Below, in pieces: positions 7,478 through 38,130 of a stretch of DNA of 64,000 nucleotides. Under the pieces are notes generated by a model. It was given only the letters and a program-made list of their open reading frames with translations. It searched no databases and had not been told where the DNA came from. Origin of the DNA: Desulfatitalea tepidiphila. GTDB taxonomy: Bacteria; Desulfobacterota; Desulfobacteria; Desulfobacterales; Desulfosarcinaceae. The DNA lies in NCBI RefSeq assembly GCF_001293685.1, contig NZ_BCAG01000003.1, positions 1,302,001-1,366,000 of the forward strand. The letters run 5' to 3'. Position numbers and translations under genes: made by a program. Within the stretch, counting starts at the first letter, position 1, and each line of letters opens with the position of its first letter.

Positions 7478-8521
7478 TCAGGTGTTGCGCAGTTGCCTGC
7501 AGGCGTCGAGAATCAACCCCTCGGTGGTTTCCCAGGATATACAGGCATCTGTGATGGAAACGCCATAGGCCATGGTATTGAGATCACCGGTGTTTTTCTG
7601 TTGCCCTTCATTGAGGTTGCTTTCCAGCATCATGCCGATGATGGCGTCATTTCCGGAAATTCGCTGGTGGAGGACATCGTTCCAGACCACCGCTTGTTCC
7701 TTGTACTGTTTGCGGGAGTTGGAGTGCGAGCAGTCTACCACGATGCCGTTGGTTAATTTCTTTTCGGACAACATGTCCATCACCTCTCGAATTGTGACCG
7801 AATCGTAATTGGGGCGCTTGCCCCCGCGCAGGACCAGGTGAGCGTATGGGTTTCCGGTGGTGGCGACGATGCTGGCCTGTCCGTTGTGATCGATTCCCAA
7901 AAAATGTTGGGGGGAACCTGCGGCGATCATGGCATTGAGGGCCACCTTGAGGTTGCCGTCGGTACCGTTTTTGAATCCTACCGGCATGGAGAGACCGCTG
8001 GCCATTTCGCGATGGGTTTGCGATTCCGTGGTGCGGGCACCAATGGCGGCCCAGCATACCAGGCCGGCGAGGTATTGGGGGATAAATGGATCGAGCAACT
8101 CCGTGGCGGTCGGCAGGCCCATATCGGTAATTTCGTTGAGCATACGCCGGGCTTTTTTAAGTCCCTTTACGATATCGTAGGTGCCGTCAAGGTTGGGATC
8201 ATTGATCAGGCCCTTCCATCCAACGGTGGTGCGGGGTTTCTCGAAATAGACACGCATGACCAGAAAAATTGTATCGTTGACTTTTTCCTGAAGGGCTCGA
8301 AGCCGCTGGGCATACTCGATGGCAGCCGCCTCGTCATGGATCGAGCAAGGTCCCGTAATCACCATAAAACGCTTGTCTTTTCGAGAAATAATGTTCTGGA
8401 TGATCTGTCGTCCCTCCAAAATCGCATCGGTGGAACGTTCACCAATGGGGATGTCGTCCTTGAATGCATCCGGTGAAACGAGGGGGGTGAAATCTTTGAT
8501 ACGGATATCGTAGGTTTTCAT
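7478..8521 (-). CDS. aroF: Class I 3-deoxy-7-phosphoheptulonate (DAHP) synthase
   Basis: A 347-residue AroFGH-type enzyme that condenses phosphoenolpyruvate and erythrose-4-phosphate in the first step of aromatic amino acid biosynthesis. Motifs include MVITGPCSIHD, YFEKPRTTVGWKG, GARTTESQTHREMASGLS and VDCSHSNS, all typical of class I DAHP synthases. The ATG at 8521 has an AAGGAG site 9 nt upstream; a longer reading frame to 8569 would run through that site and is rejected. The transcript begins about 235 nt upstream and contains a Tyr-rich leader peptide and a terminator, so expression is very probably controlled by attenuation. Which of aroF, aroG or aroH is the best name cannot be decided, although the Tyr-rich leader suggests a tyrosine-responsive isozyme. 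Confidence 0.95.
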   Translation of the reverse strand: MKTYDIRIKDFTPLVSPDAFKDDIPIGERSTDAILEGRQIIQNIISRKDKRFMVITGPCSIHDEAAAIEYAQRLRALQEKVNDTIFLVMRVYFEKPRTTVGWKGLINDPNLDGTYDIVKGLKKARRMLNEITDMGLPTATELLDPFIPQYLAGLVCWAAIGARTTESQTHREMASGLSMPVGFKNGTDGNLKVALNAMIAAGSPQHFLGIDHNGQASIVATTGNPYAHLVLRGGKRPNYDSVTIREVMDMLSEKKLTNGIVVDCSHSNSRKQYKEQAVVWNDVLHQRISGNDAIIGMMLESNLNEGQQKNTGDLNTMAYGVSITDACISWETTEGLILDACRQLRNT

Positions 8522-8580
8522 CTTCCATCTCCTTAAAACGTCGGTGTTCGTTCGTATATGTGTTTGCATCTTGTTTCGGC

Positions 8581-8617
8581 AAAAAAAAAAGCCGCAGGCG
8601 GGTTTGCCTGCGGCTTT
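8581..8617 (-). terminator. Attenuator terminator in the DAHP synthase leader
   Basis: On the minus strand GCCGCAGGC pairs perfectly with GCCTGCGGC around a short loop (8591-8614), followed by ten consecutive T (8581-8590). It lies 20 nt after the leader-peptide stop codon and 60 nt before the DAHP synthase ATG. This is where an attenuator terminator belongs, rather than a terminator of an upstream gene. The 5' arm (containing CAGGC) can alternatively pair with GCCTG in the 3' part of the leader-peptide coding sequence, which would form an antiterminator. Confidence 0.88.
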
Positions 8618-8636
8618 GGGCTGAATTTGAATCGCG

Positions 8637-8729
8637 TCAGCGCACCCCAGGCATCCGGGCGTAATAATAAAAGTAATAATAGTTGAAAGAATAAGGGGTG
8701 ATGGCAGGCGCTGGTAATAGACGTTTCAT
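8637..8729 (-). CDS. Tyr/Phe-rich attenuation leader peptide of DAHP synthase
   Basis: A 30-residue open frame starts with ATG at 8729 and stops with TGA at 8637-8639. The centre reads YSFNYYYFYYY: seven Tyr and two Phe in eleven residues, composed of TAT, TAC, TTT and TTC codons. It is preceded by a consensus promoter about 35 nt away and followed by an intrinsic terminator, then the aromatic-pathway enzyme. This is the classic geometry of ribosome-mediated attenuation (as in pheA and trp leaders). Ribosome stalling at the Tyr codons under tyrosine shortage should favour the antiterminator. The ribosome site is weak (AACCAAA before ATG). The attenuation mechanism is inference; the reading frame and its surroundings are directly visible. 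Confidence 0.88.
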   Translation of the reverse strand: MKRLLPAPAITPYSFNYYYFYYYARMPGVR

Positions 8730-8762
8730 TTTGGTTGGCCGACTATAGGTTGATTTTTTGGA

Positions 8763-8791
8763 AAAATAGCGACATCTCAATCAGATGTCAA
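8763..8791 (-). promoter_or_regulatory. Consensus sigma-70 promoter of the DAHP synthase leader
   Basis: On the minus strand TTGACA (8786-8791) and TATTTT (8763-8768) are separated by exactly 17 nt. The predicted start point is near 8756, placing the leader-peptide ATG about 27 nt into the transcript. It is among the best matches to a sigma-70 promoter in the window. Confidence 0.8.
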
Positions 8792-9013
8792 TGAATAATC
8801 CTGCAATGCGGTTTGCCGCCGGATAATCAGTTTTGTGTCCCCAATTCAATGGTGGAGACGACTCGTCATTAACTGGAAGGATTTTCGGTGTTTAACATTA
8901 CGATTCGGTAAGTTTCTAAATTTTTATTTACTTTGGATGATCGGCTGGATAATCTGTGGCCGTAAAAAATGGAATAGGGGTTTTCTATACATTCATTGCA
9001 AGGAGAGATTTCA

Positions 9014-10006
9014 ATGACCTTAAATTACAAAAGATATGCAGCCGTGATCCTGGCTCTGGCGGGTCTGCTGACGATGCCGCTTTCGGCCGTCGCCGAGCAG
9101 AAAGAGAATGCGGGATCTCCTGCCCATGTGGCCATAGTGAATGGTGAAACCATATCCAATCAAGATTACCAAGCCGAATTGGTCCTTTATAAACAGCGGT
9201 TGCAAGCGCAGGGAATGCAGATCCCTGAGGATTTGCAGGATCAGGTGCGGACTGAGGTGCTCAATCAAATGATCGGTCGCGAATTGATCTTTCAGCAAAC
9301 TCAAAAAAGTGGCATCGAGGTCGATTCTGTCCAGGTGGATAGCGAGCTGACGGCCATTAAAGAGCGTTTTGGCGATCCTGAAGCCTTTCAGGCGGCTCTG
9401 AATAAAATGAACATGACCGAGGGCAAGTTGAAAGCCCAGATCGTTGAACGTACGGCCATCAGGTCCTTTATTGAGAAAGAAATCGTTTCCAAGATTCAGG
9501 TTTCGGACGAAGAGGCCAATACTTTTTACAAAGATAATCCCAATTACTTCAAACGGCCCGAAGAGGTGCATGCCCAGCATATCTTGATCAAGTCGAACAA
9601 GGAAGACGACGAAAAGAAAAAAGAGGCGTCTCGTCAGGAGTTGATGAAGATAAAAAAACGCATTGATGCGGGTGAGGACTTCGGCGAACTTGCAAAGGCT
9701 CACTCCCAGTGTCCCAGTGCCCAGAACGGCGGCGACTTAGGCAGTTTTGGCCGAGGTAAAATGGTGCCTGCCTTCGAAGAGGTGGCTTTCGGCTTAAAGG
9801 CCGACGAAGTCAGTGATATCGTGGAGACACAGTTCGGCTATCATCTGATTAAAGTCCTAGAGCATCGCCAGGCGTCTACGGTGGATCTTGAAGAGGCCCG
9901 GCCGCGAATTGTCGCCAACCTTCGCAACCAGAAAATTCAGTCAGAAGTGAATACTTATGTGGAAAAGTTGCGGGGCGAGGCCAAAATCGAGACTTTTCTA
10001 AAGTAA
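9014..10006 (+). CDS. Secreted parvulin-type peptidyl-prolyl isomerase (SurA/PrsA-like)
   Basis: A 330-residue exported chaperone. A signal peptide ends near SAVAEQ, a SurA-like helical N-domain follows (VNGETISNQDYQAEL, then DQVRTEVLNQMIGRELIFQQ), and a PpiC/rotamase domain occupies roughly residues 185-285 with VHAQHILIKS, GEDFGELAKAHSQCPS, GGDLGSFGRGKMVPAFEE and TQFGYHLIKV. It should help fold periplasmic or outer-membrane proteins. The ATG at 9014 follows AAGGAGAG; an in-frame ATG at 8996 precedes that ribosome site and is rejected. The gene is divergent from the DAHP synthase promoter and apparently monocistronic. Confidence 0.93.
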   Translation: MTLNYKRYAAVILALAGLLTMPLSAVAEQKENAGSPAHVAIVNGETISNQDYQAELVLYKQRLQAQGMQIPEDLQDQVRTEVLNQMIGRELIFQQTQKSGIEVDSVQVDSELTAIKERFGDPEAFQAALNKMNMTEGKLKAQIVERTAIRSFIEKEIVSKIQVSDEEANTFYKDNPNYFKRPEEVHAQHILIKSNKEDDEKKKEASRQELMKIKKRIDAGEDFGELAKAHSQCPSAQNGGDLGSFGRGKMVPAFEEVAFGLKADEVSDIVETQFGYHLIKVLEHRQASTVDLEEARPRIVANLRNQKIQSEVNTYVEKLRGEAKIETFLK

Positions 10007-29082: not shown

Positions 29083-29394
29083 ATGCTTCTCTGCGAGTGC
29101 TATCTGCGGACCGATCCCTCTACCCATGAGAAAGGAGTAGATCTCATGTGGGAGTCGGTTTTCTTTATCCTTACCAAGACCATCGCGGCACTGGAAGCGC
29201 ACGACAACCAGATCCCGTGCATCCTGGGCGCGCGGATCCGCAAGGTCGAGGTGATCAGAGATCGTGTCCTTTCACATCCGGGTAGCCATGCCGCCGACGA
29301 TACAGCAGGTGTGAACAGGCGTCAAAAAACCTTAAAGGGTAGTGCCAACAGCTTTTTTGTGCCTTGTAGCTATTTGAAATCAAAACTAATTTAA
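29083..29394 (+). pseudogene. Remnant of an IS4/IS1634-like transposase
   Basis: The frame contains a segment (about 29146-29283) reading FFILTKTIAALEAHD, QIPCILGARIRKVEVIRD and VLSHPG. It resembles the region of IS1634/IS1380-type DDE transposases that reads like '...YILGARMRKVKEVRDEVLSR-G'. Only this piece is left; start, DDE residues and inverted repeats are not found, so it is a decayed fragment rather than a gene. It suggests that the 28-30 kb region has been a target for mobile elements. Confidence 0.5.
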
Positions 29395-29506: not shown

Positions 29507-29669
29507 AAAATATACAATATTTCCAACTGTAGACGCGTTCGGTAGCTGAATTGCGAACCTCTCCCGTTGCGAGTCTCTCCTATACTCCATTTGCACCCGG
29601 TATTTCCAGGCGATTTGGGTGGACACGATATTCCTTAATTGATGGCACCGTAAAAAGTCGCTGTCGGAC

Positions 29670-29793
29670 GGCGCCGTAAAAAGTTCAAGATCAAGGCGTG
29701 CGAAATTCCGTGTCCTGAGGCGTACTTGTCGTACGCCGCAAGGACGACGGGATGAGCACAATGCAGATATTGGGCTTTTTACGGTGGCGTCTT
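29670..29793. repeat. Miniature palindromic element (GCCGTAAAAAG family)
   Basis: Arms GACGGCGCCGTAAAAAG (29670-29686) and, inverted, CTTTTTACGGTGGCGTC (29777-29793) match at 15 of 17 positions. A central small hairpin GGCGTAC-TTGTC-GTACGCC is also present. A second partial arm, GGCACCGTAAAAAGTCG, lies just to the left at about 29644. No coding capacity. Similar elements are, from memory, abundant in some Desulfobacterota genomes. It lies in the presumed leader of the propeller-KAP gene and ends 20 bp before its ATG. Confidence 0.75.
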
Positions 29794-29813: not shown

Positions 29814-32800
29814 ATGAGTGCACCCACGGTCACCGATGCTCCGGCCCCTGGCGGACGGCGCATCCATATCACTGGATGGCTCATCGGCATGTGCCTGGCA
29901 CTGTTCGTCAACGCCACATACCTCGCCCTCGGCCAATCCCCCCGCAATGATCCGCTTAAACCGGCGACGCTCAAAACTAAAATAATGTTGCCCTATGAAG
30001 AGAACGCATTCATGCGCTTGCCGGCAATATCCGGCAATCTGAACGATCTTCTCGTCACACCGAAAAATGGACACATCTGGGGGGTCGGCAGCGGCGGTTT
30101 GATCATCGTCAGCCGCGACAACGGACAATCGTGGGAGCGGAAAACCTCACCGATTTCCGTTCAAAGGCGAGTTCCAAGCGTCCCCAGTGCCCCTAGCCTC
30201 ACCGCGCCAAGCTCCATGAAGCTATCTGGATCGTTGCGAAATCGGGTCGAGTTGGGCATCCGAAGCGCCAATGCGGCCAGCCAGGAGCAATTTACACGAG
30301 ACACCCCGAACCAGTCCAAGGACATACGCCAGCAGGCACCGGCGGAAAAAGTGCCCGAAAGAAAGATAGACCCACGACTACAGAAGGTTGCTCCGGAAGA
30401 AATCCCAATCGCGCTTGTCGAATCACCGCCTGATTTTTCATCCGTGTTCTTCGTCGATGACTCTTTCGGGTGGATTGTCGGATCGGGCGGCTTGATTATG
30501 TGGACCGGCGACGGCGGAAATAGTTGGCGGGTACAACCCAGCGGCAGCGACCGTGATCTTTCGGCCATTTATTTTATAGACCGCAACCGGGGTTGGGCCT
30601 GCGGTTCGAACGGCACGATCCTGTCGACCGAAGATGGCGGGGCGAATTGGAAAGGGCAGCGTAGTACCACCTCTGTCTTCCTGGGCTCGGTATCTTTTGC
30701 GGACCGTGAACGGGGCTGGGCGTGCGGGAATGATGGCCTCATATTGTCGACCATCGACGGCGGTGTATATTGGAAGCCGCAACGCAGTCCCACGACGAGC
30801 AATTTGGCGGCCATCCATTTTGCCGATCCCAAAAATGGTTGGGCGTGTGGAGCTGGGGGCACGTTACTGTCGACAACCGATGGCGGCGCGACCTGGCGAG
30901 CCCAGAATAGCGGTACATCCTTTGATCTGAACGCCGTTCATTTCGCAGATCGCAATCTCGGTTGGATTTGCGGCACCGGCGGTACGATATTGATGACCCC
31001 CGATGGCGGCAGGAACTGGCAACCTCAGACCAACGGGACATCTCCTGCCCTGAGAGGTATCCATTTTACAGGCAGCAAAAGCGGTTGGGCGTGTGGAGCC
31101 GGTGGCACGATTCTGTCGACGACCGACGGCGGTGCGACCTGGCAGGCGCGGAGCAGAAGTCAGCATCTCATTCTGACATCCATACATTTCGCAGACCTCG
31201 ATCATGGCTGGGCCGGCGGCACCTTTGGTAATGTCGTGTCGACAACCGATGGCGGTGCAAGCTGGCAGGTGCAGTCGAGCGGGACGCGGGACTTTCTATT
31301 CTCGATCCGTTTTTCGGACCGACGGCATGGCTGGGCCTACGGGTACGATGGTACCCTTTTGTCGACGACCGACGGTGGTGCAAACTGGCGGACGCAAGTT
31401 AATACCTTGCCTAATGGTTTGGTTTCGATCCATTTTCCAAATCGGCAGGAAGGCTGGGCGTGTGGGAGGAACGGCACGATTCTGTCGACGACTGATAGTG
31501 GTGCGAGCTGGCAGACGCAGGTCAGCGGGACATCCGTCGACCTGACATCGATCCATTTCATTGATCGCGAGTACGGCTGGGCGTGTGGGGCAAACGGAAC
31601 GATTCTGTCTACGCGCGATGGTGGTGCGAGCTGGGAAGCACAGGTGAGCGGGCAATCTTTCGGCCTTTCATCCATCCATTTTGTTGACCGCGAGTACGGC
31701 TGGGCGTGTGGATCAGGCAGTCCGATCCTGTCGACGCGCAACGGTGGTACCAGCTGGCAGACGCAGTTCAGCAGAGAATCTCTCGACCTTTCATCGATCC
31801 ATTTTATAGACCGCGACCGTGGGTGGAGTTGTGGATCAAAAGGTACGATCCTGTCGACGGTCGACGGAGGAGTGAATTGGCGGATTCAGGATGGCGGCAC
31901 ATCCGCCGGCCTGTACCGCATATACTTTAAAGATCGCGACCGCGGATGGGCCTGCGGCACAGGCGGTACGATACTGTCCACCACGGACGGCGGGCAGACC
32001 TGGCGGCTGCCCAACTATCGGCGCCTGCCCGCGCCTTGGTATTGGAGTCTCTGTTTGGCTTTGATCCTGGTATCCCTGTTTGTGGTGCAGCGGAGGGGTC
32101 AGCCGGAACAGGGGAGCGAGACGGTGGCGGACCTGCTCGCCTCCGATCGGCCTCTGGTGGCCGGGGATCCCGATCCGTTGAATCTGAAAAATATCTCATC
32201 GGGACTGGCGCGTTTCATCGCCAACCGCAACACAGACCCCCCTCTGACCATTGCGGTGACCGGCGAATGGGGCACGGGTAAATCCTCTCTGATGAACCTT
32301 CTTTATCATGACTTGAAGCAGCGCCACTTCCAGCCGGTCTGGTTCAATGCCTGGCATCACCAGAAGGGAGAGCAATTGTTGGCCTCTCTGTATGCCCACA
32401 TTCGCAATCAGGCGGTGCCGCCCCTGTGGCATCCCAGCGGTGTCATTTTCCGGCTGCGTCTTCTGTTCCGACGGGGACGGCGCAACCGTCTCGCCTTCGG
32501 CGCTCTGGCTTTTTTACTGTTTGCAGCATATCCGTTTCTGCAAGATGTGGTACTGGCGATCGTCGGCGGTATAGGCGCACTGGTGAGTGCCCTGGTGGCA
32601 GAGGACTCGGCGCGAATCCGGCAGCTTTTTTCGATCGGTGAATGGGTGTCGGTGATTCCAGACAACTGGATCGGTGCGCTGCTCGCTTCGCCGGCGGTCG
32701 CCGCAGTGTTGAAGGGTATACGCGCCTTCGGTCTTTCTCCTCAGCGCCTGATCGCCTTCGATTCGTCCGAGAGCGGTAAAAAGAGCGGTCTGGATCCAGG

Positions 32801-34283
32801 GGCGCGGTCACGTTTTGCCCAGGAGTTTCAGGATGTGGCGGCCAGTCTGGACCTGGGGGCCATGGTGATCTTTATCGATGATCTGGACCGATGCAGCAAG
32901 GAAAACGTGGTCGAGATACTGGAGACCATCAATTTTCTGGCAGTCTCCGGACGGTGTTTCATTATTTTGGGCATGGCTCGCCAGTGGGTGGAGACCTGCG
33001 TGGCCCTTCAATTCAAGGAGTTGGCTGAAGAGACGGGAAACGAACAGGGTGGCAGCGGGGACGGCTTCGTCCACCGCAGGCAGTTTGCCCGACAGTACCT
33101 GGAAAAACTGATCAACATCGAAGTGCCTGTGCCGCTTCCCCCACCGGATGCCACCCGGGCTCTACTGACACCTCCAATTAAAGCTCTGGGTTCACCGATG
33201 GCCCGCTTTTTGTCCACCCTCGGCAAGGGATCGAAAAAATACGCGCCGGTGATCTGCCTGGCGGTGTTGGCCCTGTTGGCGGTGGGGCTTCAGGATCTGC
33301 TCGTTCCTATGACGCCCTCTGAAAAACCCCCGACGCAAGAGGAGCTGCTGGTACTACCGGCGCATACGCAACAGGGAGAGCTGGTTCTGGAAGAGGGGCG
33401 CATTCGAATTCCCCTGAATGAGAACACAGACATGCCGGGTGTGCCCGATGGCCGGCCACTGGAGCTCGTGCTCAAGGGAACGCCCCGGGTGCTTGAAGAA
33501 GGCCTTGCCATCGGCAAAATCGGCAAGGACGATCGCACCGCCGAACTGGTGTTGCGGTATCGACCTCAAGATGTTCCCAAAACAACCCTCTCCCCAGCCA
33601 GGGGCGAACAACCGTTGGGTCAGCCGCCGAAAGAGAGAAAAATAGATGCCGCGGATTTCATGCCGGGAGCCGAGGACAACAGTCAGACCGGTCAATGGAT
33701 GGCCTTGTTGGCCGGTATCGGGTTGCTGGCCATCGGTACGCTCTACATGGTGCAGCGGCCCCAGCGCTTCACCGCAGACTCAAAGAACTTCCGCGATGCC
33801 CTGGCGATCTGGCATCCCTGGATTGTTCTGGTTCGACGCACGCCGCGCACCATTAAACGCTTTCTCAACCGGTTGCGCTATGTGGCCATGCGGTTGAAAT
33901 TCGAACCGAAGCGGCTCAGCTTGTGGGATAGCATGAAATCCAAGGTTCTCAGGAAGAGACCAACCCAACTCGGGCCGGTTTCTGTCGAGGGAGTTCCGGA
34001 ACCGGTACTGGTGGCACTTGGCGCCATCTACCATGTCCAACCCGCCTGGTTGAGGGATGCCGATATTCTTCGGGAAATTTTTTCATCGGATCGCGAGAAG
34101 TTGATCCGTCGATTGAAAACCACCTTCCCGGAGCTGACGGACCGATCCGGCGAGCTGCACGGAACCATCGACGCATTGTCCGCGGCCATCAACGAATTTC
34201 AAGATACCTTCGGGCAGGATGTGGAGATCCTGATTCAGTATCGGGATTCGTTTCTGTCGGTGTTGGCCGAAACAGGGATGTGA
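29814..34283 (+). CDS. YCF48-type beta-propeller / KAP P-loop NTPase membrane fusion protein
   Basis: A 1489-residue protein. An N-terminal membrane segment (residues 19-39) precedes one YCF48-like repeat near 72-110 and a linker. Thirteen contiguous 41-residue repeats fill 208-740, each of the form L-x-x-I-H-F-x-D-x-x-x-GWACG-x-x-GTILST-x-DGG-x-x-W. A transmembrane helix at 742-760 follows. The KAP NTPase begins near 795, with Walker A GEWGTGKSS at 817-825, a hydrophobic membrane pair at about 893-931, and Walker B MVIFIDDLDR at 1017-1026. Two more membrane segments lie at about 1143-1163 and 1295-1314. Membrane helices inserted between Walker A and B are a known KAP trait. The layout suggests a periplasmic propeller sensor joined to a cytoplasmic NTPase. 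ATG 29814 (AGGGTGG upstream) is preferred over GTG 29784, which lies inside the palindromic element. It has no operon partner. Function is unknown. Confidence 0.92.
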   Translation: MSAPTVTDAPAPGGRRIHITGWLIGMCLALFVNATYLALGQSPRNDPLKPATLKTKIMLPYEENAFMRLPAISGNLNDLLVTPKNGHIWGVGSGGLIIVSRDNGQSWERKTSPISVQRRVPSVPSAPSLTAPSSMKLSGSLRNRVELGIRSANAASQEQFTRDTPNQSKDIRQQAPAEKVPERKIDPRLQKVAPEEIPIALVESPPDFSSVFFVDDSFGWIVGSGGLIMWTGDGGNSWRVQPSGSDRDLSAIYFIDRNRGWACGSNGTILSTEDGGANWKGQRSTTSVFLGSVSFADRERGWACGNDGLILSTIDGGVYWKPQRSPTTSNLAAIHFADPKNGWACGAGGTLLSTTDGGATWRAQNSGTSFDLNAVHFADRNLGWICGTGGTILMTPDGGRNWQPQTNGTSPALRGIHFTGSKSGWACGAGGTILSTTDGGATWQARSRSQHLILTSIHFADLDHGWAGGTFGNVVSTTDGGASWQVQSSGTRDFLFSIRFSDRRHGWAYGYDGTLLSTTDGGANWRTQVNTLPNGLVSIHFPNRQEGWACGRNGTILSTTDSGASWQTQVSGTSVDLTSIHFIDREYGWACGANGTILSTRDGGASWEAQVSGQSFGLSSIHFVDREYGWACGSGSPILSTRNGGTSWQTQFSRESLDLSSIHFIDRDRGWSCGSKGTILSTVDGGVNWRIQDGGTSAGLYRIYFKDRDRGWACGTGGTILSTTDGGQTWRLPNYRRLPAPWYWSLCLALILVSLFVVQRRGQPEQGSETVADLLASDRPLVAGDPDPLNLKNISSGLARFIANRNTDPPLTIAVTGEWGTGKSSLMNLLYHDLKQRHFQPVWFNAWHHQKGEQLLASLYAHIRNQAVPPLWHPSGVIFRLRLLFRRGRRNRLAFGALAFLLFAAYPFLQDVVLAIVGGIGALVSALVAEDSARIRQLFSIGEWVSVIPDNWIGALLASPAVAAVLKGIRAFGLSPQRLIAFDSSESGKKSGLDPGARSRFAQEFQDVAASLDLGAMVIFIDDLDRCSKENVVEILETINFLAVSGRCFIILGMARQWVETCVALQFKELAEETGNEQGGSGDGFVHRRQFARQYLEKLINIEVPVPLPPPDATRALLTPPIKALGSPMARFLSTLGKGSKKYAPVICLAVLALLAVGLQDLLVPMTPSEKPPTQEELLVLPAHTQQGELVLEEGRIRIPLNENTDMPGVPDGRPLELVLKGTPRVLEEGLAIGKIGKDDRTAELVLRYRPQDVPKTTLSPARGEQPLGQPPKERKIDAADFMPGAEDNSQTGQWMALLAGIGLLAIGTLYMVQRPQRFTADSKNFRDALAIWHPWIVLVRRTPRTIKRFLNRLRYVAMRLKFEPKRLSLWDSMKSKVLRKRPTQLGPVSVEGVPEPVLVALGAIYHVQPAWLRDADILREIFSSDREKLIRRLKTTFPELTDRSGELHGTIDALSAAINEFQDTFGQDVEILIQYRDSFLSVLAETGM
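30435..32033 (+). repeat. Thirteen tandem 123-bp coding repeats (YCF48-like blades)
   Basis: The DNA repeats with a period of 123 bp (41 codons), thirteen units in register without spacer. Strongly conserved words include GGCTGGGCGTGTGG and ATTCTGTCGACGAC. Together with the isolated unit near residues 72-110 there are fourteen blades, which would fit two seven-bladed propellers. The close nucleotide similarity between units suggests recent duplication or gene conversion, so the number may vary between strains. Confidence 0.9.
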
Positions 34284-34383: not shown

Positions 34384-35502
34384 TTATGAAAGATGCTCTT
34401 TGAGAATGCCCAGCATGCGGCGCAGAGGCTCGGCGGCTCCCCAGAGCAACTGGTCTCCTACGGTGAAGGCGGTCAGGTATTGGGGGCCTATATTCAATTT
34501 CCGGATGCGGCCCACCGGTACCTCCAGTCTGCCCGAGACTCTGGCCGGCGTCAGTTCGCGCAGGGTGATCTCTTTTTGGTTCGGAACCACCCGCACCCAG
34601 GCGTTGTGTTCGGCCAGCATCGCCTCGATTTCATCCAGAGGGACATCCCTGGTCAGCTTGATCGTGAGGGCTTGGCTGTGACAGCGCATGGCGCCGATCC
34701 TGACACAGAGGCCGTCGATGGGAACAGGGGTGTTTTCACGGCCCAGAATCTTATTCGTCTCGGCCATGCCCTTCCACTCTTCACGCGTCTGCCCGTTTTC
34801 CATGGGGCGGTCGATCCAGGGAATCAGGCAGCCGGCCAGCGGCGCGCCGAAATTTTCAGTGGGGAAATCTTCTCGGCGCAGCGTTTCCGACACATTCCGA
34901 TCGATTTCGAGGATGGCGGATGCCGGGTCTGAGATTAAATCGCAGGCATGTTGACCGATCACCTGCATCTGGCAAACCAGTTCGCGCATGTTCTGGGCGC
35001 CCGCACCCGAGGCCGCCTGGTAGGTCATCGAGGTCATCCATTCGACCAGGTTGTTGGCAAATAGACCGCCGAGCCCCATCAGCATCAGGGAGACGGTACA
35101 ATTGCCGCCGATGAAGTCTTTGACCCCGGCGGCGAGTGCCTCCTTGATGACGTGGAGGTTGACGGGGTCGAGGATGATCACGCTGTTTTTTTCCATCCGC
35201 AAGGTCGAGGCCGCGTCGATCCAGTATCCATTCCATCCACTCTGGCGCAATTTGGGATAGGATGCCTGGGTATAATTCCCGCCCTGGCACGACACGATGA
35301 TATCCATCTGCTTGAGGCGTTCAATATCGTTTGCATCTTCCACGGGACCGGTTTCATGACCGATCCAAGGGCCCGGTTGTCCGGCCTGTGAAGTGGAAAA
35401 GAAAACAAAGTTAAAATTTGCAAAATCATTTTCGCTTCGCATGCGCTCCATGAGCACCGAACCGACCATTCCGCGCCAGCCGACAAATCCGACCGTTAGC
35501 AT
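34384..35502 (-). CDS. asd: Aspartate-semialdehyde dehydrogenase
   Basis: A 372-residue enzyme reducing aspartyl phosphate to aspartate semialdehyde, a branch point for lysine/diaminopimelate, threonine and methionine. [18 protein letters not shown] is the NADP-binding start, and the catalytic Cys lies in [30 protein letters not shown] and the later [16 protein letters not shown] (His-containing) are typical of the gram-negative long form. An AAAGGAG ribosome site precedes the ATG. It is convergent with the propeller-KAP gene and not in an operon with other lysine genes here. Confidence 0.96.
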
Positions 35503-36197: not shown

Positions 36198-37112
36198 CTA
36201 TCCGGGGACGGTCTGGAACCGGATCGCCAGCGGTGAGTCTTTCGGTATCTGCTGTCCCAGCGCAATCACGCCCATTTCCGGAAGGGGCATCTCATCTCGC
36301 CGGACGGTCGCTGTCTGACCGTCCGATTTCAGCACATAGGTCCCGTTGGTGCTCTCATCGATCAGGATGAAGTTCTCTTTGCGCAATTCGACTCTCGCAT
36401 GCAGTCTGGATACACTGGGATCGTTAATCACGATCGTATTGATCTTGTCTCGTCCGAGGGTAACTACCGGGCAAGATGAGTCGACGCAGACCCGCTGGCC
36501 TTCGCTGGTCAACACCAACCTGGCACGTTGAACCGTTTGACATGCCTGTGGTTGACCACCGACGGTGGTGATCATGGTCAGTTCTTCGGGACGACCCCAT
36601 GACAACTCGTAAATATCGACAGGCCGCCATTTGCCTTTAATCCGGGCTTGATCCACGAGCCTTGCACAGGATAGATGAACCCCTGTAAAAAGCTTTATGG
36701 TGTAACCCGAGGTGATGATTTGACCTGCCTTGGCCTGATCCACCATGCGCGCGGCCATGTTGACGGCATCGCCGAATACGTCGTCCGATTGGCGGACGAT
36801 CGGGCCGTGATGCATGCCGATGCGCAGTTGAATGTGTTCGGCCGACATTTGCGGATCGGCGGATATCTGCTCCTGCATGTGCGTGGCGGCCGAAGCCGCT
36901 TGATCCGGCGTGTCAAAGGTGCACATCACCTCATCGCCGATAGTTTTGATCACCGTACCTTTTTTTTCTCTTGTGAGGGCGGCCAGTTTGTCCATGCAGG
37001 TGGTCACCAATAGGCGTGCACGCTCGTCTCCAAGCTTTTCATACAGGCGTGTGCTTCCGGCGATATCTGCGAACAGGATGGTTTGATAGATTTTTTCAGA
37101 GGATAGCAGCAT
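36198..37112 (-). CDS. Class III adenylate cyclase domain fused to a C-terminal FHA domain
   Basis: A 304-residue soluble signalling protein. The cyclase domain (residues 8-165) has both metal-binding Asp residues (FADIAGSTRLY and TIGDEVMCTF), Lys in VIKTIGDE and Asp in FGDAVNMAARM. This Lys/Asp pair is the ATP-specific combination, so cAMP should be the product. Residues 215-295 form an FHA domain (VTLGRDKINTIVINDPSVSRLHARVEL, then STNGTYV) that binds phosphothreonine. It may therefore couple Ser/Thr phosphorylation to cAMP. The ATG at 37112 lacks a clear ribosome site. No kinase is adjacent. Confidence 0.92.
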   Translation of the reverse strand: MLLSSEKIYQTILFADIAGSTRLYEKLGDERARLLVTTCMDKLAALTREKKGTVIKTIGDEVMCTFDTPDQAASAATHMQEQISADPQMSAEHIQLRIGMHHGPIVRQSDDVFGDAVNMAARMVDQAKAGQIITSGYTIKLFTGVHLSCARLVDQARIKGKWRPVDIYELSWGRPEELTMITTVGGQPQACQTVQRARLVLTSEGQRVCVDSSCPVVTLGRDKINTIVINDPSVSRLHARVELRKENFILIDESTNGTYVLKSDGQTATVRRDEMPLPEMGVIALGQQIPKDSPLAIRFQTVPG

Positions 37113-37308: not shown

Positions 37309-38130
37309 GTGATTCGAAAAATTGTATCGGCCGGTCAGACCGGCGTTGAGCTGGCGGCTTTGGATATTGCTATCAAGCTGGGTATTGCGCATGGTGGTTG
37401 GACATCGAGGGGTCGACACAACGAGGATGGACGGCTTCCTGAAATGTACCGGCTCGAAGAGACATCGATCCTGGGATTTCAGGAGGCTTTGCGGAAAAAT
37501 GTGTCTGAATCGGACGGCACGTTAGTGATTTCCAGGGGAAAGAGTACCCCCCATACGAAAGAGGCCGTGCGGACGACACTCGAACTTGAACGGCAGCTGC
37601 TTCATGTCGATCTATCCCAGCATCCTCTGTTCGAGGCCGCTTCGCTTGTCAGTTCATGGATGGCCCAAAAGCACATCAAAATCGTCCATGTGACCGGTCT
37701 GCTGTCGAGCGAAGATCCCGCCATTTATGATCAAACCCGAAAGATATTAGAAACAGCGTTTTATCTTGGATTTATTAAATCAGATGTTCAACAAACTATG
37801 CGCGGTCCCGATGTGAGTTCCGCCCCTGGTGTGGAAAGCTTGCCGCATACTGTATCTGACGCCGTCAAAGCTCTTAAGACGACCCTTACCCTGAAAGACC
37901 GAACCCTTTTGGCGAACATGCAATTGGATGAATTGGATCACCTTCGTTCGGGCTTGGGAGAATATATCAAGCAGCACTTTGGCTTGTATGCCGGAAACCA
38001 GTCGCTTTTGGAATCATGCGCGCAGCATGCCGGCCTGATTCGACCGCTGCCAGACGAGGCATGCGCGGTGATCCTGCGGGCATTATGGGAGGATCTCGGT
38101 CGGAGTCACAAGCTCAGAGTCGTTAAGTAG
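37309..38130 (+). CDS. Putative molybdenum-carrier-like protein with C-terminal DUF6794-like module
   Basis: A 273-residue protein with a GTG start after AAGGGGGG. The N-terminal 160 residues match the 'putative molybdenum carrier' (MoCo carrier, Rossmann-like) family: IVSAGQTGVELAALDIAI, HGGWTSRGRHNEDGRLP, GTLVISRGKSTPHTKEA. The C-terminal part from about residue 178 (SLPHTVSDAVKAL, LDHLRSGLGEYIKQHFGLYAGNQSLLESC, then a D-x-A-x-x-I segment) is a separate helical module. It is clearly similar to the protein encoded at 42281-42589, and I compare both to DUF6794. The TAG stop lies inside the 7-bp duplication flanking a palindromic element. Confidence 0.85.
   Translation: MIRKIVSAGQTGVELAALDIAIKLGIAHGGWTSRGRHNEDGRLPEMYRLEETSILGFQEALRKNVSESDGTLVISRGKSTPHTKEAVRTTLELERQLLHVDLSQHPLFEAASLVSSWMAQKHIKIVHVTGLLSSEDPAIYDQTRKILETAFYLGFIKSDVQQTMRGPDVSSAPGVESLPHTVSDAVKALKTTLTLKDRTLLANMQLDELDHLRSGLGEYIKQHFGLYAGNQSLLESCAQHAGLIRPLPDEACAVILRALWEDLGRSHKLRVVK

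Follow-up and report, generated by a model that had tools for sequence, protein, structure and literature searches.

A YCF48-like propeller and a KAP NTPase in one membrane protein of Desulfatitalea tepidiphila: a candidate surface receptor

Why would a bacterium place a large array of propeller blades and a membrane nucleoside triphosphatase (NTPase) in a single chain, and what might such a protein do? The question is raised by a gene in a 64,000-nucleotide stretch of the Desulfatitalea tepidiphila genome (RefSeq assembly GCF_001293685.1, contig NZ_BCAG01000003.1, positions 1,302,001 to 1,366,000; "the window" below means this whole stretch). The gene, at window positions 29814-34283 on the forward strand, is a single open frame of 1489 codons without interruption, and it has one copy in its own genome (only the self-match was found at E<=0.001). 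We consider it very probable that its product combines propeller blades and a KAP NTPase in one membrane protein. Pfam assigns eight stretches of the chain to PSII_BNR/YCF48 (E = 1.3e-71) and two to KAP_NTPase (PF07693; E = 2.3e-25, 89.9 bits against a cut-off of 20). A preliminary description of this DNA had proposed an N-terminal membrane segment, one and then thirteen 41-residue repeats, and a KAP NTPase; the reading frame, Pfam, a hidden Markov model (HMM) of the blade and AlphaFold2 all confirm this layout, and the coordinates it gave for helices and Walker motifs are correct.

The blade HMM, together with the regular spacing of the repeats, places one blade at residues 76-110, followed by a linker of ~90 residues and 13 contiguous 41-residue repeats. 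At the DNA level the copies (families D1 and D2) are 60-76% like the reference copy, and the blade array is therefore not a recent amplification. Hydropathy marks hydrophobic segments at residues 21-39, 740-758, 911-929, 1146-1164 and 1295-1313. Walker A (GEWGTGKSS) starts at residue 817, and Walker B (IDDLDRC) ends at residue 1027; its DDLDRC is invariant in a 68-row alignment of relatives. The parts of the protein are as follows, in window coordinates.

29814..34283 (+): propeller-KAP coding sequence, 1489 residues plus stop
29862..29930 (+): N-terminal membrane helix, residues 17-39, predicted N-terminus inside (hydropathy, AlphaFold2, charge bias)
30039..30143 (+): blade 1, residues 76-110 (blade HMM, AlphaFold2)
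30159..30407 (+): predicted disordered linker between blades 1 and 2, residues 116-198, predicted local distance difference test (pLDDT) under 50 (AlphaFold2)
30426..32027 (+): blades 2-14, residues 205-738, 41-residue YCF48-type repeats
32034..32096 (+): second membrane helix, at residues 741-761, which overlaps with PAPWYW, a conserved motif
32262..32288 (+): Walker A, GEWGTGKSS, residues 817-825
32340..32363 (+): WFNAWHHQ, an invariant motif in the KAP half, at residues 843-850
32487..32720 (+): helices 892-928 and 949-969, an insertion that separates Walker A from Walker B and has its hydrophobic peak at 911-929
32859..32894 (+): Walker B with its DDLDRC motif, at residues 1016-1027
33249..33305 (+): membrane segment, residues 1146-1164 (hydropathy, AlphaFold2)
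33399..33554 (+): residues 1196-1247, a short stretch rich in strands that is predicted, at low confidence, to lie outside the membrane
33684..33752 (+): last membrane segment, residues 1291-1313 (hydropathy, AlphaFold2)
33843..33878 (+): conserved PR..KRF.NR..R motif past the last membrane segment, residues 1344-1355

AlphaFold2 was run separately on residues 1-775 (20 sequences) and 736-1489 (68 sequences). The first model (mean pLDDT 82.7) contains the strands of all 14 blades between helices 17-39 and 741-761, so that a propeller is predicted, as the preliminary description anticipated. The second (pLDDT 79.2, predicted template-modelling score 0.75) has long helices at 892-928, 949-969, 1128-1163 and 1291-1313 and, at low confidence, a strand-rich stretch at 1196-1247; hydropathy and this model place predicted membrane helices inside the NTPase domain, both between the two Walker motifs and beyond them. 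When the propeller model was compared with solved structures using Foldseek, the top matches were two-propeller GH74 enzymes at 13-15% identity, with a root-mean-square deviation (rmsd) of ~8 A or more to most GH74 chains, which makes the placement of the rings uncertain. YCF48 was matched with a template-modelling (TM) score of 0.76, normalised to the YCF48 chain, and an rmsd of 3.3. The closest solved structure to the KAP model was the RADAR RdrA ATPase, a weak match (E = 6.5e-4, TM about 0.2). A profile of the KAP half searched against the sequences of solved structures gave one match, at E = 0.015, and no convincing relative, and a match in BFVD to a Megaviridae KAP protein (E = 1.7e-6) shows the KAP fold and nothing more.

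The model is consistent with two seven-bladed rings, the predicted ring unit being seven blades. That the 14 blades form two such propellers had been suggested beforehand, and the AlphaFold2 model, the Foldseek matches, two length classes among relatives and switching between seven and 14 blades all point the same way; closure of the rings is itself a prediction.

On which side of the membrane would the propeller lie? An N-terminal helix is present in 66 of 75 proteins, and positive charge is heavier on its N-terminal side in 55 of these 66, with six ties and five reversed. The helix before the NTPase, found in 69 of the 75, carries no such signal (28 favour an inside NTPase, 25 the reverse, and 16 are tied). 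The charge on the first helix, the requirement that the NTPase be inside, and the even number of later predicted helices lead us to predict that the propeller is outside the inner membrane, anchored by one helix at each end, and that the chain is returned by two later helix pairs so that the NTPase is inside. The earlier proposal of an external propeller thus has the support of its first helix and none from the charge of its second.

Is the fusion peculiar to this genome? Relatives were found in bacterial genome contigs by short patterns taken from both halves of the protein, a choice that favours full-length relatives, and the best 80 of 127 were kept, giving 79 loci. Counting a propeller as three or more blades recognised by the blade HMM, with alignments that start at residue 696 not counted, 68 of these 79 loci have blades and a KAP P-loop in one frame; nine of the others have fewer than three recognised blades and two lack a KAP open reading frame (ORF). 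Every one of the 77 loci that have a KAP-half ORF carries the P-loop motif WGxGK[ST]S. Ten NCBI phylum-level groups are represented in a 68-row tree of KAP halves, in which nine rows are unassigned, and the named isolates include Pseudomonas, Variovorax and Plasticicumulans. We conclude that propeller-KAP proteins form a widespread family and are not peculiar to this genome, and that most of the sampled homologues keep both halves.

The size of the propeller varies within this family. Fourteen blades are recognised at 15 of the 77 loci, seven at 11, five at 10 and three at nine, the rest being spread from 0 to 13; these counts are affected by truncated contigs, missed degenerate blades and one strain counted twice (L038/L039). 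A clean split between seven and 14 blades is not borne out by the raw counts, in which five and three blades are nearly as frequent. A test of propeller length that is independent of the blade HMM gave a clearer picture: among 65 proteins that have an N-terminal helix, the distance between it and the NTPase is below 500 residues in 34 cases, 500-540 in three, and 577 or more in 28, and this shorter and this longer class fit one or two seven-bladed rings. On the KAP-half tree, blade state changes between seven and 14 at least six times over the 24 rows with exactly 7 or 14 blades (other rows being left out), or seven times if four 13-blade rows are taken as 14. Two Gallionella copies, for example, have KAP halves that are 87% identical and propellers that are 45% identical, with 14 and seven blades. 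When 14 chosen pairs were compared, conservation was lower in the propeller than in the KAP half for 13 of them, the exception being L035/L050.

One locus (L078, ORF within 7481-9764) encodes a 761-residue protein of the same KAP subfamily that has no recognised blades and two hydrophobic segments near its N-terminus. A genome of the same genus (G003) has 19 repeat matches in ORFs of ~340-416 residues on 14 contigs (for example L083 and L094), none with a KAP half; these are many genes the size of a single propeller.

How does this protein compare with known systems? It resembles the KAP family (PF07693; PifA, QatA, Tmn, Kidins220) in its two Walker motifs, in the helices that interrupt the NTPase, and in its Pfam and PADLOC matches, and it adds an N-terminal propeller predicted outside the membrane and a strand-rich insert, also predicted outside, between its last two helices. 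With YCF48, a photosystem II assembly factor, it has the blade family and the seven-bladed fold in common; solved YCF48 chains have ~300 residues, whereas the window protein has 1489, with 14 blades, two membrane anchors and an NTPase fusion. GH74 xyloglucanases and AIP1 likewise have two propellers per chain, but they are not membrane proteins and their ring placement differs or is uncertain; RdrA, the weak best structural match of the KAP half, is a soluble ring ATPase. Unlike qatABCD, the window gene has no operon partners: Pfam found no QueC or TatD type among eight window neighbours, a set that did not include the gene at 34384-35502 and in which two short ORFs had no match. A full-text literature search, judged by titles and the beginnings of abstracts, found no published description of the propeller-KAP architecture, in agreement with the preliminary description, which knew of none; the founding KAP paper (Aravind 2004) may mention it. 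In the portions available, one article names KAP NTPases solely among the targets of diversity-generating retroelements (PMC10907252), and another has a Geobacter KAP NTPase in a table of mutation hotspots, its architecture not given (PMC13194489).

What, then, might the protein do? We think that it probably works in a receptor-like manner. The explanation that we favour, with confidence a little short of even, is that it is a self-contained transmembrane NTPase of receptor type, perhaps used for surveillance in conflict with phages or competitors. The ligand of the propeller would be a protein or polymer, either on the cell surface or within the periplasm, and its binding would shift the membrane helices and so signal to the NTPase, as the preliminary description also proposed; the shift could alter NTP binding or the oligomeric state of the KAP domain, which may in turn act on membrane or cytoplasmic clients. 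A role in conflict, either phage exclusion or a response to competitors, exerted by one gene without partners, is a more tentative proposal. We suggest it because KAP relatives are found in defence (PADLOC; Tmn, PMC11846954; QatA, PMC12424860, as far as the accessible portions of these papers go) and because the gene appears to be mobile. From what is available of its description, Tmn is a KAP-family NTPase with two transmembrane domains that acts as an anti-phage system by a mechanism described as unexplored (PMC11846954). PADLOC models for QatA, PifA and PDC-S20 match the KAP half, and no Tmn-named model was among the matches at E<=1, the library's content for Tmn being unverified. A bolder version, which we regard as rather unlikely, is that these proteins are an undescribed and widespread class of one-gene bacterial surface immune receptors, in which a changeable one- or two-ring propeller senses molecules of phages or competitors and thereby drives the KAP NTPase embedded in the membrane, with some phages and plasmids carrying copies to exclude rivals. 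Little is understood of KAP NTPases; in this protein the part that probably receives the input belongs to the same chain, as an extracytoplasmic module of variable size, and the question of what turns a membrane KAP NTPase on is made directly testable in one gene.

The argument for mobility draws on a copy in a phage tail module, a copy on a RepA-bearing element, the position of the window gene at a synteny breakpoint, the lack of shared neighbours and patchy presence. The tailed phage carries an intact 14-blade propeller-KAP gene of 1308 residues in its tail region (L106:2991-6917 / L135:6985-10908 / L134:5935-9858), with a tail protein (phrog_290) and a tape-measure protein (phrog_12506) each one unassigned ORF away; the two viral contigs that bear it differ at 27 of 11,707 positions. 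The KAP half of this copy is closest to those of Roseomonadaceae. The region upstream of it has four terminator-like sites, against 0.7 expected, of which one is on the same strand as the gene, and it has no promoter-like site. The RepA-bearing copy lies in a 183-kb Siccirubricoccus contig (L035, L075, L137-L142), a ~2.2-fold concatemer whose unit is an 82.68-kb element that has matches of RepA, phage-sheath and baseplate type. On one side of its propeller-KAP copy this element has a resolvase, an SNF2/PLD helicase, a GmrSD-type gene and a DUF1156 gene. The element is a plasmid, and its restriction-like cluster makes it the exception to an otherwise absent defence setting.

In the window, the gene's surroundings include two further features.

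29639..29791 (strand.): dispersed repeat of ~155 nt that has inverted arms and stops 22 nt short of the start codon
34384..35502 (-): neighbour gene, 372 residues, edge of a block that is collinear in relatives

The neighbour gene, which we take to be aspartate-semialdehyde dehydrogenase-like, has a match in twelve relatives, four of which (G002, G005, G006 and G009) were compared with the window. From this gene rightward the block is largely collinear with the window in G005, G006 and G009, and G002 keeps one further gene. None of the window's left-side genes is on the opposite flank in any of the four; the left flank of G002 has a single match, to a distant window gene at 61.6 kb, and G005 and G006 have a ketoacyl-synthase III-like gene on the flank where the window has the propeller-KAP gene. 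With its right side collinear and its left side unmatched, the gene therefore sits at a synteny breakpoint. The window gene and its two closest relatives have no flanking genes in common over the stretches compared. The full-length protein is present in three of 40 genomes (its own, G006 and G023), a distribution that is patchy even within the genus, and the KAP half in four of 291 genomes of the class, its own included. A phylum-wide profile search gave one of 395 with at most three candidates scored per listed genome, and is not used as a prevalence.

The gene itself is 55-60% guanine plus cytosine (GC), so it does not stand in a low-GC area as had been described; the low stretch, at 41-47%, lies upstream at 27.5-29.5 kb. 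Nor was the label of transposase remnant confirmed for the ORF at 29083-29391, which has no Pfam match at E<=0.01 and no second copy in the genome. The ~155-nt repeat has at least 40 genome matches, itself included, the others being 86-97% identical (40 of 139 candidates were scored). It looks like a miniature mobile element or one of repetitive extragenic palindromic (REP) type, and it could provide the 5' leader of the gene. Scans for promoters and terminators ahead of the window gene found nothing beyond chance.

The search for an operon partner came to nothing. Over 80 flank sets only broad paralogue families recur, in at most 13 sets, and the recurrent clusters are histidine kinase, ABC transporter and GGDEF paralogues. 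The nearest neighbours are on the same strand in 26 of 60 cases upstream and 30 of 70 downstream. PADLOC matches among the nearest neighbours are scattered, single or double, some of them to ordinary enzyme relatives, with a GajB-like helicase as a single match.

Several observations weigh against a receptor with a role in conflict. Neighbour scans covering 92 of 129 nearest genes (Pfam and PADLOC) and 145 of 197 further ones (Pfam), with the top 25 families listed and without a random-locus baseline, found no recurrent defence family; no Pfam family exceeds three in either set, and the families listed are mostly housekeeping. The defence island that the preliminary description suggested looking for was thus not found, the plasmid apart, and an ordinary neighbourhood argues for caution. 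The PADLOC matches may reflect merely the shared KAP domain, and the available part of the qatABCD study reports a limited effect of losing QatA and QatD (PMC12424860). A single phage type was found, none of 50,697 phage records gave a match at E<=1e-10, and four plasmid records were matched over the propeller only, with no plasmid record having one place that covers 80% of the protein. As for the receptor itself, the charge of the second helix lends its topology no support. Some relatives have far fewer recognised blades, and the short ones L056, L058 and L065 could fit no more than about five, so that the family as a whole does not obey a strict rule of seven; faster divergence of the propeller also fits relaxed constraint or homogenisation of repeats.

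An alternative that we judge somewhat unlikely is an envelope assembly or quality-control factor, in which a YCF48-like propeller holds immature or unfolded membrane proteins outside while the KAP NTPase powers their assembly or removal. The blades match YCF48 in family and fold, YCF48 has been solved bound to a D1 peptide (according to the titles of structure entries), and the neighbours listed are mostly ordinary chromosomal genes; patchy presence even among the 40 genomes, the lack of a recurrent partner, and carriage by a phage and a plasmid all argue against such a factor. Phage carriage is also hard to explain for a receptor that detects signals from the environment or from neighbouring cells (in adhesion, or in the recognition of kin or surfaces) and would be comparable in design to membrane KAP scaffolds such as eukaryotic Kidins220. 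Such a receptor would account for a large, faster-diverging extracytoplasmic module beside a better conserved NTPase. We consider this distinctly unlikely, since no downstream signalling gene recurs (GGDEF, response-regulator and histidine-kinase families each account for only 2-3 of the 92 nearest neighbours).

If phage carriage is instead given the most weight, the gene could be a superinfection exclusion factor, borne by phages or plasmids, that became established in chromosomes and has no role beyond exclusion, as the intact 14-blade copy between tail genes and a tape-measure gene on two viral contigs might suggest. Those near-identical contigs are, however, the only two of 17 viral loci with KAP relatives to show a near-full match to the KAP half, and most copies found sit in bacterial genome contigs, making this very improbable. 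That two genes were joined by an error of assembly or annotation is a negligible prospect: nothing was found in its favour, the frame is uninterrupted here, and a fusion that recurs at 68 of 79 loci, in ten phylum-level groups, is not an assembly chimera. A receptor-type NTPase remains the explanation that we prefer.

Beyond the neighbour gene, the window contains a gene at 36201-37112 in which a guanylate-cyclase domain is fused to an FHA domain and, adjoining it at 37309-38127, a circularly permuted YpsA/SLOG gene. In G005 and G006 these two genes are likewise retained close to the same neighbour gene.
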